From: Myxococcales bacterium
GTDB lineage: Bacteria; Myxococcota_A; Polyangia; Polyangiales; Polyangiaceae
Direction: 5' to 3'
Assembly (NCBI GenBank): GCA_013298325.1
Contig: JAAFHJ010000003.1
Span: 1-33,943 of the forward strand
Length of the DNA: 33,943 bases
The translations under genes were made by a program, and so were the position numbers. The stretch's first letter is position 1, and every line of letters starts with the position of its first letter. Shown here piece after piece: positions 9,019 through 18,690 of this stretch. Below the pieces are notes generated by a model. It had not been told where the DNA came from and searched no databases. It saw only the letters and a list, made by a program, of their open reading frames with translations.

Positions 9019-9786
9019 GTGTCTGGAAAAAAGAAGGACCACGCCACCGACGAAACGCTCCTCGCCGCGCGCAAGGAGCTCGCGAAGTGGATTGCCGACG
9101 AACTGGGAATCGCGGACGTGCCTGCCCTTGGAGAGGCGCTGACCCACGCAAGTTACGCCCACGAGCACGGCGGCGGAGGCGACTACCAACGCCTTGAATT
9201 CCTTGGCGATGCGGTACTGCAGCTTTGTGCGAGCGAGCTGCTCTTCGCCCGCCATCCCGAGGCCGATGAAGGGGCTCTCACACGCATTCGACGCGACATG
9301 GTCAGCGCCGGGGCGCTTGCGCGTTTCGCCGCGGTCCATCGTTTTGGCGAGGCGGTAGCCCTCGGTCGCGGGAAACGCCAGGAGGGCGTGAACGAGAAGA
9401 TTCTCGCGAACGTCGCCGAGTCGGTCCTTGCGGCGATCTATCTCGCTGGCGGCCTCGAGGCAGCGCGCCGCTACACCGACGCGGTCGCGGCAACTGCGTT
9501 TGCCGATGGCGGCGCTGTCGGCGAACGGGACCCGAAAGAGGCGCTCCAAGAATGGAGCCAACGGGCCAAAAAAGGGCTCCCCGAATACCTGGTCGTCGCC
9601 GTCGATGAGGCGGGAAATCCTACAGAAACGCGCGTCCGCGGCTACCGGGCTACCGTTTCCCTTGCGGGAGAAGCGCTAGGGAACGGCGAAGGTGCAACGA
9701 AACAACGGGCCGAGCGAGCGGCAGCCACGATTGCCCTTGAGCGCGTGCCGCGGACCGGTCTGTCTGAGCGGCCCCCCGCCACCTAA
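9019..9786 (+). CDS. rnc: Ribonuclease III
   Basis: 'LTHASYAHEHGGGGDYQRLEFLGDAVLQLCASELLF', 'NEKILANVAESVLAAIYLAGG' and a C-terminal dsRBD 'DPKEALQEWSQRAKKGLPEYLVV...GEGATKQRAERAAATIAL'. GTG start. Confidence 0.93.
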   Translation: MSGKKKDHATDETLLAARKELAKWIADELGIADVPALGEALTHASYAHEHGGGGDYQRLEFLGDAVLQLCASELLFARHPEADEGALTRIRRDMVSAGALARFAAVHRFGEAVALGRGKRQEGVNEKILANVAESVLAAIYLAGGLEAARRYTDAVAATAFADGGAVGERDPKEALQEWSQRAKKGLPEYLVVAVDEAGNPTETRVRGYRATVSLAGEALGNGEGATKQRAERAAATIALERVPRTGLSERPPAT

Positions 9787-9798
9787 GCGGGCAGACGG

Positions 9799-10818
9799 TC
9801 ACGGTTTTTGGGTCGGAAGCGGGATTGCCCCCGGTGCAGAACGCTTCGAATCCGAGACCGTAGGCGGAGCGACGATGTCGATCACCTCAACTTTTTCCGG
9901 ATGGAAATCGGTGAGATAGCGTTTCCGAAGGTCTGCGATCAAATCCGATTTCGCCTTCGCGTCGTTCTCACGCCCGAGCACCGTTCGAATCTGCGTTTTC
10001 GCCTCGTCGAGGGGCCGCTTCGTTGCCGGAATCGACCCGCGGCGCCAGACAATCGCGAACTTGTCCCCTTCGGCAACCGGCTCTTTGCCGATTTCGCCGT
10101 CGGCCAATTTGGCGGCCGCCGCATAGATCGCCGCATCGACGGAAACCCCCGCCTCCGTCGATTTGCCATCGGGAAACAGGAACCCGAGCGAACCGCCGCG
10201 AAGATTGGACCCCTTATCGAGGCTTTTTTCGCGGGCAACGTCGTTCCACGTCGCAAGCTTTCCGCCGCCGTCTTGGAGGCTCTTTGCGAGCGCCACCGCC
10301 TCTTCTTTGGTGGCTACAAGAATGCGCTGGACGGAAATTCGGAGCGGCGCATCAAAGTCGCTTCGGTGGCCTTCGTACCAAGCGGCAACTTCCGCGTCGG
10401 TTAATGCGGTCTTTCCGGTGTCATGGAGGGCACGGAGGAGCGCATTCGCCTTGGCGCGGGCCAAATCAAAGCGGATCCGAAGGGGGGCATCGAGTTTCTC
10501 ATCGACGGCTGCCCGCTCAAGGAGCGCATCGCCAATCACAACGTCCTTAAGGAAGGTTCGCAGCGCCTCCGCGGGATCCTTCCCGAACATTTCATACTGG
10601 TAGCGCGGGACTTCCGCAAAGCGACCGCGAAGCGTCTCGACGTCAATCGCGATTCCAGTGCCCTTCGCCACGATGCGAGAATCGGCTTCCGCTTTGGCGC
10701 TTCCGGATACGCTTGCCGTCGGTAAAGGGGCGGGCGTAGCCATCGCGATCCCTGCGGCACCGACGAGAGAAGCGGCCGCAAAAACAGAGGCCACAAAATG
10801 AAAACGACGGAGCGGCAT
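9799..10818 (-). CDS. Secreted/periplasmic parvulin-type peptidylprolyl isomerase (PpiC-like)
   Basis: Signal-peptide-like N-terminus 'MPLRRFHFVASVFAAASLVGAAGIAMA'; parvulin-like core 'ISVQRILVATKEEAVALAKSL...ATWNDVAREKSLDKGSNLRGGSLGFLFPDGKS...KFAIVWRRGSIPATKRPLDEAKTQIRTVL'. Confidence 0.85.
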   Translation of the reverse strand: MPLRRFHFVASVFAAASLVGAAGIAMATPAPLPTASVSGSAKAEADSRIVAKGTGIAIDVETLRGRFAEVPRYQYEMFGKDPAEALRTFLKDVVIGDALLERAAVDEKLDAPLRIRFDLARAKANALLRALHDTGKTALTDAEVAAWYEGHRSDFDAPLRISVQRILVATKEEAVALAKSLQDGGGKLATWNDVAREKSLDKGSNLRGGSLGFLFPDGKSTEAGVSVDAAIYAAAAKLADGEIGKEPVAEGDKFAIVWRRGSIPATKRPLDEAKTQIRTVLGRENDAKAKSDLIADLRKRYLTDFHPEKVEVIDIVAPPTVSDSKRSAPGAIPLPTQKP

Positions 10819-10844
10819 AGCCCGAAGGCTCTACCGCTCCGTCG
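10795..10844 (-). terminator. Rho-independent terminator-like hairpin (11-bp outer stem, cUUCGg tetraloop, interrupted U tract) overlapping the PPIase start codon
   Basis: Minus-strand RNA: CGACGGAGCGG-UAG-AGCC-UUCG-GGCU-AUG-CCGCUCCGUCG-UUUUCAUUUU. Arms at 10834-10844 and 10805-10815 are perfectly complementary; inner AGCC/GGCU closes a UUCG loop. Confidence 0.8.
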
Positions 10845-10853
10845 ATGAAAGGG

Positions 10854-11357
10854 TCAAGCGCCCTTCTTGGCCTTCGGTGCCTTCGGCGCTGCGCCGGCGG
10901 CGACCTTCTTCGCGGGACGACCGCGGCGGGGCTGAGCGCCTTCAACGCCGGCCGCCTCGAGGGAGTCGGCGGAGATACCGACAAAGCGGTAGGTCTCCGG
11001 GCGGAAGTTGTAGGCCTGGTGAAGCTGCTTCACGACTTCGATGAGCGCTTCGCCGGTGACGCCCGGCTTGCGAACCTTGACGAGCTTCTTGAGCGCGCCG
11101 AGGGTCTCGCCGAGTTCCATCAATTCTTCGACGCGAACGAGAACGTCGAGCGGCTTGAGCTCCTTGTTCCCACCGGCGGAGCCGGCTTCGAGTTCCTGAA
11201 GAAGACGCTGACGGCGCTTTTCGGTACGCCCGTCGAGCTGGACCGCGGAGGAGCCGCGACCGCCGAGGACGTCATTGAACAAACGGCCGGCGCGACGCTT
11301 GGCAATCGCTTCCGGGGAGCCACGACGATTCTGAGCCTTGCTGGTATTCTTAGCCAC
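10854..11357 (-). CDS. Small basic protein of unknown function with AT-hook/histone-like Lys/Ala-rich tail
   Basis: 167 aa from GTG at 11357, preceded by a strong RBS (AGAGGTG-AAAACA-GTG on the minus strand); the ORF track starts at 11408. C-terminus 'AQPRRGRPAKKVAAGAAPKAPKAKKGA' contains an RGRP AT-hook core. Confidence 0.7.
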   Translation of the reverse strand: MAKNTSKAQNRRGSPEAIAKRRAGRLFNDVLGGRGSSAVQLDGRTEKRRQRLLQELEAGSAGGNKELKPLDVLVRVEELMELGETLGALKKLVKVRKPGVTGEALIEVVKQLHQAYNFRPETYRFVGISADSLEAAGVEGAQPRRGRPAKKVAAGAAPKAPKAKKGA

Positions 11358-12035
11358 TGTTTTCACCTCTTGGCGCGCCATCTTGCACAACGAGTTCGAA
11401 TCCGTCAATCAGTGTTGTCGTCGGTGATGACATTTTTTTTTCCACAGGCAGTCCCGGTTTCGGCAGGCGGGCGAGGGAGGACTCGGCGACAAGCAGTGCT
11501 CCTTCTGCGCAACGCTCGGTGACGCCACTTGGGACAACAGTCCTGATTCTCACCCCGCCCAACGCCGCTGGAGCGTCGTAGACCGGGACGCGTCAATCGG
11601 AGTTCGCCCGCCCGCTACGGTGCCCGCGCCAAGGAACTCGGCGTTCGTCCTTCCCGGAGAAGGGCGGGTTTGCATCGGTCTCCGTGCCATCTTCTGGCGA
11701 TCCCACGGACGCAACTTCGCCGGCGTATACCCGTCACAACTTATTGATTACACCGCTTTTTCACCAGCACGACCTCAATACAGTTCGGCGAAGTGGGTGG
11801 CCCTCCCAGCATCAGAAGTGAACCTCGATGGGGCCTGAAATCGACCGCCGACCGCGGAGGCTTCGCCGATGGTAGGCCGACGCGCAGTCGATCGCTTGCT
11901 CGATACAGGCGGAGAAGAACCGCCGCTGAGTCGCCGCAGGCGGACGCAAGAAGTGCGCGGCGTTCTCCGCGAGGGACGCCAGCTCCAGCGAGCGGCTCTC
12001 AACACGCGACGAGAAACTCCAATCGACGTTTGCCG

Positions 12036-13289
12036 CTAGCGACCGCGGAGCGCGAGGACGACCATCCCAAGAAGAGCGAGCACAATCGCCCAAAAGAGCA
12101 GGTGGCGAAGCGGTGAGCGTTCACGGGCGACGACGCGCCGTCCACGACGCCGGGCATCTTCTTCGTCGATTTCCGCCTGTTCGTCGTCATCTACCTCGTC
12201 AAACCCGGCGAGCGCCGCGGCATGATGCGCGAACTCGTGACGAACGGTTTCTTCGAGTTCCTCGTGCCAGTCGGCGCCCTCCTCGGTGGCCTCGGCGGCA
12301 ACCGCGCGAAAAGAGCGCGTGTAGAGAGTCACGATCGGCGGGAGGCCGTCGACGCTTGGACGATAGGAACCGAGAAGTGGAACGCCAGCAGCATCGACCG
12401 CCGGTATTCCAGCGTCGACACGAAAGGCGACCGGCGGACGGGGCACGATTGCCCCCTCTGCGTGCTCGGCATCAGCGGCCAAAAAGGGGGCCGCTACCCC
12501 TTCTGCGATACGCGCAAACGTCGCGTCGTCGGGGAAGCCGTTTCGGCTTGCGTCGAAGGCAGCCAGCGGCATTTCGGTGACCTCCTCGTCGAGGAATTCC
12601 CGATAGAAAGGGACTTCGACGAGGTTCGCCGCGTCGCAGGACGGGCAACGAACTTCTGCGGTCAGACGGGCCGGATAGTGGGCCGCTTGGAGGAGTTCTT
12701 CCACGGAGAGCGCGAGGATCTCGTCGCTCCGAAGGGCCTGCGCGATCGGCCCCGGCTCACTGGCATCACCAACAGCCCGAAGTCCCCAAGCATCGACAAA
12801 CGCCCGTGAAAAAGCGGTGCGCCCGTCAGCGACGGCGCGCCACGCGGGGAGCAATTCGCCGACCGTCCGTTCCGCGATTCGCACATAGACCTCACCCGAC
12901 TGGCCGGCGAGCAGGTGCGGGACGTCGTAAAGAAAAGGGGCATCGAGTTCATCGTCATTGAGCTCGGCGTCATCAAATGGGCCGGTGGGAAACGCGGCGC
13001 CGGGGCGTACGACGAAGCGCTTTTCGCAATTGGAGCAGGGGATCGATACGGCAGGATCATGGAGCAGACCGCGTGCCGTCGCGAGCGCTCGAAGCGCATG
13101 AAAATCGCGCGCAAGGAGCGAATCGACGCTCCGAGAGCGTCCATCGACCGTGAGTCGCCCTCGTGCGAGGCGCTCCCAATCGGCAGCCGGCCCGTGTCCC
13201 GAGCGGTCGGGCGGCCCATGGTCGGCGAGGGCAAACTCGAAGCGGCCCCCGGAAAACAGGGTGCCCCGGATGCGACGCTCGGAGTTCAT
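12036..13289 (-). CDS. Zincin-like metallopeptidase (PF06262/DUF1025-like) with N-terminal two-CxxC region and C-terminal TM helix
   Basis: 'PPIVTLYTRSFRAVAAEATEEGADWHEELEETVRHEFAHHAAALAGFDEVDDDE' (HExxH with preceding zincin-type strand), CSNC and CPSC motifs, C-terminal 'HLLFWAIVLALLGMVVLAL'. Confidence 0.75.
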   Translation of the reverse strand: MNSERRIRGTLFSGGRFEFALADHGPPDRSGHGPAADWERLARGRLTVDGRSRSVDSLLARDFHALRALATARGLLHDPAVSIPCSNCEKRFVVRPGAAFPTGPFDDAELNDDELDAPFLYDVPHLLAGQSGEVYVRIAERTVGELLPAWRAVADGRTAFSRAFVDAWGLRAVGDASEPGPIAQALRSDEILALSVEELLQAAHYPARLTAEVRCPSCDAANLVEVPFYREFLDEEVTEMPLAAFDASRNGFPDDATFARIAEGVAAPFLAADAEHAEGAIVPRPPVAFRVDAGIPAVDAAGVPLLGSYRPSVDGLPPIVTLYTRSFRAVAAEATEEGADWHEELEETVRHEFAHHAAALAGFDEVDDDEQAEIDEEDARRRGRRVVARERSPLRHLLFWAIVLALLGMVVLALRGR

Positions 13290-16000: not shown

Positions 16001-18690
16001 CGGCCTGCGTCAGGGCGCGCGGAGACGGAGGCGTCGAGCCCCTCCTCGACGGTGCCCGGAGGCGGAAGGGTTGGCAAACCGCCCTCTTCTGGGGCGCCAC
16101 CATCCAATACTACCGGCTCGGCGACGTCCTTTGGCTCGGTACCGGCGAGGAAATTTTCATCCATGGTTTCCGGGTCATCGGCGAAGGGGAGCAATCCCGT
16201 TTTCTTGTCGACGGCGACGGTAACAATGCCAGAAGGTTTCGGAAAGTCGACGACCGGCTTCCCTTCCTCGGCCCCCTTCATGAAGGCGATCCATGGCGGG
16301 AGCGCAGTGACACCACCCGCTTCCCCCGCCCCGAGGGGGCGCCCGTCGTCAAAGCCGACCCAGCTCACGGCGACGAAATCGGGGGAAAAACCGGCAAACC
16401 ACGTATCTTTCGAATCGTTGCTCGTCCCCGTCTTTCCTGCGACCGGGCGGCCAAGGCTCTTCGCACGAGTCGCCGTTCCGTGGTCGACGACGCTCTTCAT
16501 CATATCGACAAGGAGCCATGCCTCGGCGTCATCCATCACCCGCTTCGGCGCGGCGCGCTCGGGGAGCGGCACTTCCTTGCCATCCGGGCCGATGATTCGC
16601 GTTACAAATCGAGGCTCTACGTAGGTTCCGAGGGTGGCGAACGTGGCGTAGGCGCCGGCGAGTTCGATCGGTTTGACCTCGTAGCTGCCAAGCGCGAGGG
16701 AGAGATCGGGTGCGAGCTTCGATTTGATTCCCAGCGCTTGGGCGAACGACACAATATTTGCTGGGCCGACGTCTTCCATGACCCGCACGGCGCCAACGTT
16801 CACCGAGTTCGCCAATACTTCGCGAAGCCGCAGCGGATCTTTCGCCGTCCACCCTTCGTAGTTTGAAGGTTTGTAATTTCCAAATGACTGCGGATTGATG
16901 TCGACCATACTCGCCGGCGTCCATCGGCGGCTCTTCAGGGCGTACCCGTAGAGGATCGGCTTAAAGGTCGATCCCGGCTGGCGTTCCGCCTGGTTGACGC
17001 GATCGAGTCCCGACGGGGCCCCTTCGTAGTTGCCGACGAGGGCAAGCACATCGCGGGTCCGTGCATCGAGCGCAACAAACGCCGCTTCGGGGCCAATTTC
17101 GAGACGAAGAGGGACCTTGTATCCCGGTTTTCCATCGGGCGGGGTGCTGTCGTTCTTTGCGTCTTTTCCATCCTTGCTTGCGGGCGGCGCAAGCAAGGAC
17201 ACCCGCACAAATGCCCCTGGCGGAGCAAACCCACTTGGTGCCAATTTTTGCGGATTGTAGCGCGGGTAATCGGCCAGTTTTACGACGCCGGTGACGTTAC
17301 CCACCTGAACGTCAAACGTCCCCGCAGCGTCATCGGCGGCCCCCACGATGCCGACGTAGGTTCGGTAGGCTTGCGGGGCGCCTTCCCAAGGCTTTTCCCA
17401 GCGACCGAGCGGCTTCGCCTTCCCCCGCTTGTCGAGAAGCTGGGGCACCTTGAGTGGGCCGGTGAGGCCTCGACGCTTGTCGAAGGCGACCAAATTGGTG
17501 ACGACGGCGTCGCGGGCGACGCGCTGGAGTTTCGGGTCGATCGTCGTCTCCACGGTGAAGCCGCCTCGCGTTGCCCGTTCTGGCTCCAAATCGTGAAGAA
17601 GTCTGCGAACGTAGCTCACCACTTCCGGCGCGAGTTCGTCGTGGGTTTCCGCGATAGCTGCAAGATGCACCGTCTCGACGCGGGCCGCTTCGAAGTCGGC
17701 CTCGGCGCCGCGAAAGAACCCCTTCGCGTTCATCTGGTCGAGGACGAAGGCGCGTCGCTCAAGGGCGCGCTTGGGGTCCTTCCGGGGGGAACAGCTCTCG
17801 GGGCAAGCGATCGTTCCTGCGAGAAGGGCCGCCTCGGCAATGGAGAGATCCTTGGCACTCTTGCCGAAGCTATCGCGTGCCGCCTCCTCGATGCCGTAAC
17901 GACCACGCCCGAAGTAGATGTGGTTCAAATACAGTTCGAGGATTTCATCTTTCGACAAAGTCTGCTCGAGCCGGCGAGCAAGAAGCGCCTCACGAACTTT
18001 GCGACGGAAGGACTTTTCCGGGTCGAGAAGGACGTTCTTGACCACCTGCTGGGTGATCGTCGAGCCCCCCTGCTTCCACTTTCCGTGGCGAAGATTCACG
18101 AGCATCGCGCGAAAAATACCAATATAATTGAGACCTTCGTGCTCGTAAAAGTTGGCATCCTCTGCGGCGAGAGCGGCGAGCTTTACGTGGGGAGGAAGGT
18201 CCCCGATCGGGACGACGGTACGGCGCTCCGTGAAGACTTCGGCCAAGATGGTCTTGTCGCGGCCGAGGATCCGCGTCACCTGCGGCGGCTTATAATTACC
18301 TTTGAGTTCCTTAACTTCAGGCAGCTCTCCTTCGAGCTTTCGCACGTAGAGGGCAAGGGCGATCCCGGCACCAACCGCAAGTGCAAGCCCAAAGAGGGCG
18401 ACCGTTCGAAGAACGTAAAGGGCGCGACGGAACATGCTGGGCTTGGCCGTTCGCTCCGCCCGTCGAAGAGTCGACGGTTTGCGGGGTTCCTCGGCGTCCT
18501 CGGAAACGTCGCGGACGTTCACCCGATTCCGCGCCGAAACCTCCCGGTCGCGGCGCGGAGCCGTCGCGAGAGACGGCGGGCCCACAACGACAGGCGCCTC
18601 CGCCCTCGATTTTGCGGGGTCCCTCTCCGTCGGCGCGAAGGCATCCTCCGATGGAGGCGGCGAATTCGAAGGATCTTCCGGGCGCTTCAC
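15997..18690 (-). CDS. mrcA: Bifunctional penicillin-binding protein 1A (GT51 transglycosylase/transpeptidase)
   Basis: 'ALAAEDANFYEHEGLNYIGIFRAMLVNLRHGKWKQGGSTITQQVVKNVLLDPEKSFRRKVREALLARRLEQTLSKDEILELYLNHIYFGRGRYGIEEAA'; transpeptidase 'RQPGSTFKPILYGYAL', 'SVNVGAVRV', 'KTGTSNDSKDTWFAGFSPD'. Confidence 0.95.
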   Translation of the reverse strand: MKRPEDPSNSPPPSEDAFAPTERDPAKSRAEAPVVVGPPSLATAPRRDREVSARNRVNVRDVSEDAEEPRKPSTLRRAERTAKPSMFRRALYVLRTVALFGLALAVGAGIALALYVRKLEGELPEVKELKGNYKPPQVTRILGRDKTILAEVFTERRTVVPIGDLPPHVKLAALAAEDANFYEHEGLNYIGIFRAMLVNLRHGKWKQGGSTITQQVVKNVLLDPEKSFRRKVREALLARRLEQTLSKDEILELYLNHIYFGRGRYGIEEAARDSFGKSAKDLSIAEAALLAGTIACPESCSPRKDPKRALERRAFVLDQMNAKGFFRGAEADFEAARVETVHLAAIAETHDELAPEVVSYVRRLLHDLEPERATRGGFTVETTIDPKLQRVARDAVVTNLVAFDKRRGLTGPLKVPQLLDKRGKAKPLGRWEKPWEGAPQAYRTYVGIVGAADDAAGTFDVQVGNVTGVVKLADYPRYNPQKLAPSGFAPPGAFVRVSLLAPPASKDGKDAKNDSTPPDGKPGYKVPLRLEIGPEAAFVALDARTRDVLALVGNYEGAPSGLDRVNQAERQPGSTFKPILYGYALKSRRWTPASMVDINPQSFGNYKPSNYEGWTAKDPLRLREVLANSVNVGAVRVMEDVGPANIVSFAQALGIKSKLAPDLSLALGSYEVKPIELAGAYATFATLGTYVEPRFVTRIIGPDGKEVPLPERAAPKRVMDDAEAWLLVDMMKSVVDHGTATRAKSLGRPVAGKTGTSNDSKDTWFAGFSPDFVAVSWVGFDDGRPLGAGEAGGVTALPPWIAFMKGAEEGKPVVDFPKPSGIVTVAVDKKTGLLPFADDPETMDENFLAGTEPKDVAEPVVLDGGAPEEGGLPTLPPPGTVEEGLDASVSARPDAGR

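Follow-up and report, generated by a model that had tools for sequence, protein, structure and literature searches.

How can two neighbouring genes share one hairpin that seems to end the first and holds the start codon of the second? This question is raised by a locus in the window analysed here, that is, the whole stretch of 33,943 nucleotides from a Myxococcales bacterium (contig JAAFHJ010000003.1), in which a gene for an AT-hook-like basic protein is followed on the minus strand by a PPIase gene. The initial annotation saw in this hairpin a built-in attenuator limiting PPIase expression. We think it fairly probable, instead, that the hairpin is an intrinsic terminator and insulator of the AT-hook gene which encloses the PPIase gene's promoter as well as its start codon, and that the PPIase gene's own transcripts escape it.

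The downstream gene (positions 9799 to 10818, minus strand) encodes an exported parvulin-type PPIase (Pfam Rotamase_2, E 8e-13) with the signal peptide MPLRRFHFVASVFAAASLVGAAGIAMA. Homologs were present in all 59 of the 59 relatives' genomes searched. A comparison of the genus's two species shows divergence of 0.9% at the first, 1.2% at the second and 14.5% at the third codon position, a pattern indicating that it is a real gene. An in-frame TAG (10833-10831), five codons ahead of the ATG at 10818, makes an earlier start impossible in the window. In the sister species (one contig of which is deposited as a Sorangium cellulosum MAG; Polyangiaceae, Myxococcota), a G-to-C change at 10831 converts this TAG into TAC. 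Taken with the codon-position pattern, the upstream stop makes ATG 10818 the likely PPIase start, as had been annotated. The alternative GTG at codon 9 (10794), right behind the U tract described below, would indeed cost the protein its charged n-region, since no start other than ATG 10818 yields a signal peptide with one. No Shine-Dalgarno (SD)-like sequence was found before the PPIase AUG in the window sequence.

The AT-hook gene (10854 to 11381, minus strand; stop TGA at 10856-10854) is an open reading frame whose exact start is uncertain. Its homologs occur in 55 of 108 family genomes, and its product was assigned to no family in comparisons with Pfam and NCBIfam. The protein (window 10854-11381) is identical in the two species and its DNA diverges by 1.1%, compared with 6.5% for the contig, which is unusually slow. 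The two genes lie on the same strand, 35 nt apart. At the opposite end of the PPIase gene, an RNase III gene converges on it with 12 nt between the stops (9786-9799), and no hairpin with a U tract of the kind scanned for was found at that convergent junction.

The minus-strand letters agree with what the initial annotation had described, both in coordinates and in anatomy: the perfect 11-bp stem, the cUUCGg loop, the U-rich tract and the 9-nt spacing are all there. The hairpin (10805 to 10844) begins 9 nt past the AT-hook stop TGA. The perfect core of its outer stem (10844-10834 paired with 10805-10815) is lengthened to 13 bp by the pairs U10833-G10816 and A10832-U10817, and above it lie a 1x1 mismatch (G10831/A10818), an inner 4-bp stem (AGCC/GGCU, 10830-10827 with 10819-10822) and the UUCG loop (10826-10823). 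The stability of this hairpin is about -32 kcal/mol. A folding-energy calculation, which the initial annotation had suggested as a check, gave the 71-nt segment a minimum free energy of -35.8 kcal/mol, compared with -19.4 +/- 2.7 for shuffled sequences (z -6.0; 0 of 200 shuffles as stable), with a single dominant fold. Among 43 hairpins with U tracts in 471 kb from the two genomes, it ranked joint second in stability, tied with its own ortholog.

The U tract UUUUCAUUUU (10795 to 10804, minus strand) follows directly after the hairpin and is interrupted, yet typical for the genus. Read from the sequence, it would supply both the predicted 3' end of the AT-hook mRNA and PPIase codons 5-8. The overlap of hairpin and coding region was likewise confirmed, the start codon and the n-region codons lying in the 3' arm; in the AUG (10818-10816), the A is the unpaired mismatch base, while the U and G are paired. 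A simple terminator scan of the window missed the hairpin, and its comparison with Rfam returned no family, just one weak and meaningless match. A repeat element was ruled out, as the 81-bp region occurs just once in the genome.

Scanning 1.31 Mb of the sister species' genome gave 115 hairpins with a U-rich tail, 61 of which lie near a same-strand stop codon (from 20 nt before it to 100 nt after it) when 5.5 would be expected by area, suggesting that the genus uses intrinsic terminators; the median distance from the stop is 22 nt. The AT-hook/PPIase hairpin resembles such Rho-independent terminators in its GC-rich stem, stable UUCG loop, U tract and position just past a stop codon, and the earlier description of it as terminator-grade agrees well with these features and with the genus-wide usage of such elements. 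What sets it apart is that it contains parts of the following gene, namely the predicted -10, the start codon and codons of the signal peptide.

The predicted promoter of the PPIase gene is invisible to a generic sigma-70 scan, which found nothing at the junction, and comparison of orthologs was therefore needed. We gathered 50 distinct syntenic AT-hook/PPIase loci, 48 of them outside the genus, taking the first in-frame ATG or GTG past the AT-hook stop as the PPIase start in the orthologs. Gene order is kept across these loci and the short intergenic stretch has largely diverged, so that the junction is well suited to a footprint test. A TA at -18 to -11 of the PPIase start was found at 30 of 44 orthologous loci, compared with a mean of 7.7 and a maximum of 14 in shuffles; averaged by genus, the count was 16.0 of 22 versus 3.8 in shuffles. 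TTGAC is present 23-25 nt upstream of the TA at 10 of the 48 loci outside the genus, in seven genera (0.05 in shuffles), and a recognisable -35 thus appears in only some orthologs. The TTGAC includes the AT-hook stop codon in nine of these ten loci, but at locus L017 it lies 10 nt after that stop with its spacing to the TA unchanged, showing that the stop codon is not its whole explanation. Judged from these comparisons, the PPIase promoter footprint is family-wide.

In the window, the layout reads TTGACC-18-TAGAGC-9-ATG. The predicted -35 (TTGACC, 10852 to 10857, minus strand) overlaps the AT-hook stop, and the predicted -10 (TAGAGC, 10828 to 10833, minus strand; TACAGC in the sister species) lies inside the left arm of the hairpin, where its TA, at -15 before the ATG, corresponds to the ortholog signal. 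Ordinary promoter geometry, applied to these predicted elements, sets the transcription start of the PPIase gene near 10821-10818 on the minus strand, about 7 nt downstream of the putative -10.

The conservation check that had been proposed for the hairpin covered the sister species and the syntenic loci. The sister species retains every hairpin pair and shows one substitution, at the unpaired mismatch base. However, of 40-nt windows drawn at random from the alignment of the two species, 32% show no more changes than the hairpin does, so that its conservation between the two species carries little weight, and we dropped it as a proof of the stem. Outside the genus, a comparable hairpin with U tract was absent at all 48 syntenic loci, and a family-wide hairpin was rejected. 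Set against the family-wide promoter footprint, a hairpin confined to this genus's two species looks like a later, genus-level gain around an older promoter.

From this nested arrangement we infer a PPIase start site, termination and insulation, as follows. The left arm would serve as promoter spacer and -10, and the right arm with the U tract would be PPIase codons 1-8. A polymerase coming from the AT-hook gene would transcribe the entire hairpin and halt at the U tract, and any read-through message would hold the PPIase AUG in the stem. A polymerase starting from the PPIase promoter would make an mRNA that is nearly leaderless and lacks the left arm, and in which the 3' arm and the U tract would be unable to form a terminator. 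The predicted pairing of the AUG is strong in the read-through RNA and weaker for an mRNA starting at 10818-10819, in which it is mostly open; for starts at 10820-10822, the predicted access is only partial. The element would in this way separate the AT-hook and PPIase genes, with no attenuation of the latter.

Leaderless genes have been associated with a TANNNT signature about 12 bp before their starts (PMC3160421), and this signal was tested experimentally in Deinococcus (PMC12340547). The PPIase gene is like such genes in its TA at -15, in having no SD and in the family-wide positional signal, and it possesses their conserved TA-type -10. The T at the sixth position of the motif is absent in the window as well as in the sister species; this T is weakly preferred in the genus (31%). 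The PPIase gene is unlike them in that its -10 would lie within the terminator stem of the upstream gene and that a leader of 1-3 nt is likely rather than none. In the sister genome, start codons preceded by a gap of 30 nt or more (257 in all) show a TA peak at -12 to -16 that agrees with the leaderless signature, both with and without SD-like motifs, in the context GGTAGnnT. Leaderless or near-leaderless transcription may perhaps be common in this myxobacterial lineage. Where it is, a gene whose start codon is covered by a hairpin is not necessarily regulated by that hairpin.

An attenuator would mean that PPIase mRNA arises mainly by co-transcription with the AT-hook gene, and that the hairpin terminates most transcripts and hides the start codon. 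The close same-strand arrangement, the synteny of the two genes in many family genomes and the AUG predicted to be paired in read-through RNA are all consistent with it. Yet the hairpin is missing from all the loci outside the genus while the promoter footprint is present there, a co-transcribed message with no SD and a buried AUG would be translated very poorly, and no alternative antiterminator fold was seen beside the dominant one in the folding calculation. Moreover, attenuation needs the left arm in the PPIase mRNA, whereas the footprint predicts a start inside the hairpin, beside the AUG, making the attenuator less likely; a PPIase start past the left arm, which the initial annotation had named as evidence against its own proposal, is what the footprint implies. 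The attenuator interpretation is probably wrong, and we consider it unlikely.

Alternatively, read-through could depend on translation of the AT-hook gene, with a trailing ribosome blocking the terminator, besides or instead of an internal promoter. The hairpin lies 9 nt from the stop, compared with the genus median of 22 nt, and in E. coli translating ribosomes repress terminators this near a stop almost completely (PMC4824070); by analogy, the nearness to the AT-hook stop may weaken termination here. The read-through message, however, would still have a buried AUG and no SD, and the tight spacing may merely reflect compactness, and we see slightly less chance for such a switch than for the attenuator. 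Lowest of all we place an ordinary terminator with the true PPIase start downstream, at GTG 10794 or at the ATG of codon 25, the overlap then being an annotation matter. The GTG directly behind the U tract and an AGGG upstream of the later ATG would suit such a start, but it would forgo the charged n-region provided by ATG 10818, which is also the start that the promoter footprint fits, and in most relatives the distance from the AT-hook stop to the PPIase start is 23-54 nt, and the n-region often contains Arg.

For the preferred explanation, a terminator enclosing a near-leaderless promoter, the parts are known and their nesting is likely new; in the part of the literature searched, we found no described leaderless promoter inside a terminator stem. 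In the frd-ampC region of E. coli, the ampC promoter lies in the end of frdD, and one hairpin is both the frd terminator and the ampC attenuator. The AT-hook/PPIase junction is like it in that the promoter of the second gene overlaps with the last part of the first, and one hairpin serves the junction. It is unlike it in that ampC is transcribed from a site upstream of its hairpin and is attenuated by it, whereas the PPIase gene's own transcripts would lack one hairpin arm. If our explanation is true, about 60 bp hold together a stop codon, a -35, a terminator, a -10, a start codon and signal-peptide code. Such a terminator would discriminate by the origin of transcription, stopping an incoming polymerase while being invisible to one that starts inside it, and a compact genome could in this manner separate neighbours with almost no intergenic space.

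A start codon inside a hairpin with a U-rich tail was found for three further genes in 1.3 Mb of the sister genome (G001), based on home-made gene calls in which start sites are approximate. One (C84:52952; locus L210, ~12952-12986) has a GTG start (MRGLFRFFFASRAFAVLATAAALTASAAAC) and a lipoprotein-like product, with GGTAGGCT in the left arm. Another (C84 76813, minus strand; locus L211, ~16789-16813) has its ATG in the hairpin loop (MRRSFCFLACLTVAAC), 17 nt past the upstream stop, and a small lipoprotein-like product; the base of the hairpin's left arm carries GCTAGGAG. The remaining one, near position 1131 of contig C3 (locus L096), starts with GTG (MGRPFLYALAGALVLGARNALA). Each lies 17-56 nt behind a same-strand stop, and the two genes on C84 have a TA at -18 to -11. 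All three have export-type N-termini, in a small sample and by a crude rule that is satisfied by 22% of genes and whose hydrophobic call is made more likely by the U tract. In the antisense control a single case turned up, which was not exported.

A GC-rich arm would be read as Arg, Gly and Pro and a U tract as Phe and Leu, so that a signal peptide would be the protein start easiest to fit. We tentatively suggest, as a possibility less probable than the explanation given for the PPIase locus itself, that a terminator around a leaderless promoter is a recurrent compact junction in this genus, in which the GC-rich 3' arm provides the positively charged n-region and the U tract a hydrophobic Phe/Leu export start. 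Exported proteins would then be favoured at such junctions, a signal peptide being what the 3' half of a terminator can encode with least difficulty. For one of the additional cases, the window's genome yielded a weakly similar sequence but no true ortholog. The hairpin of the C84:52952 gene is unchanged in that genome (ortholog L213), within a region of 93% identity.
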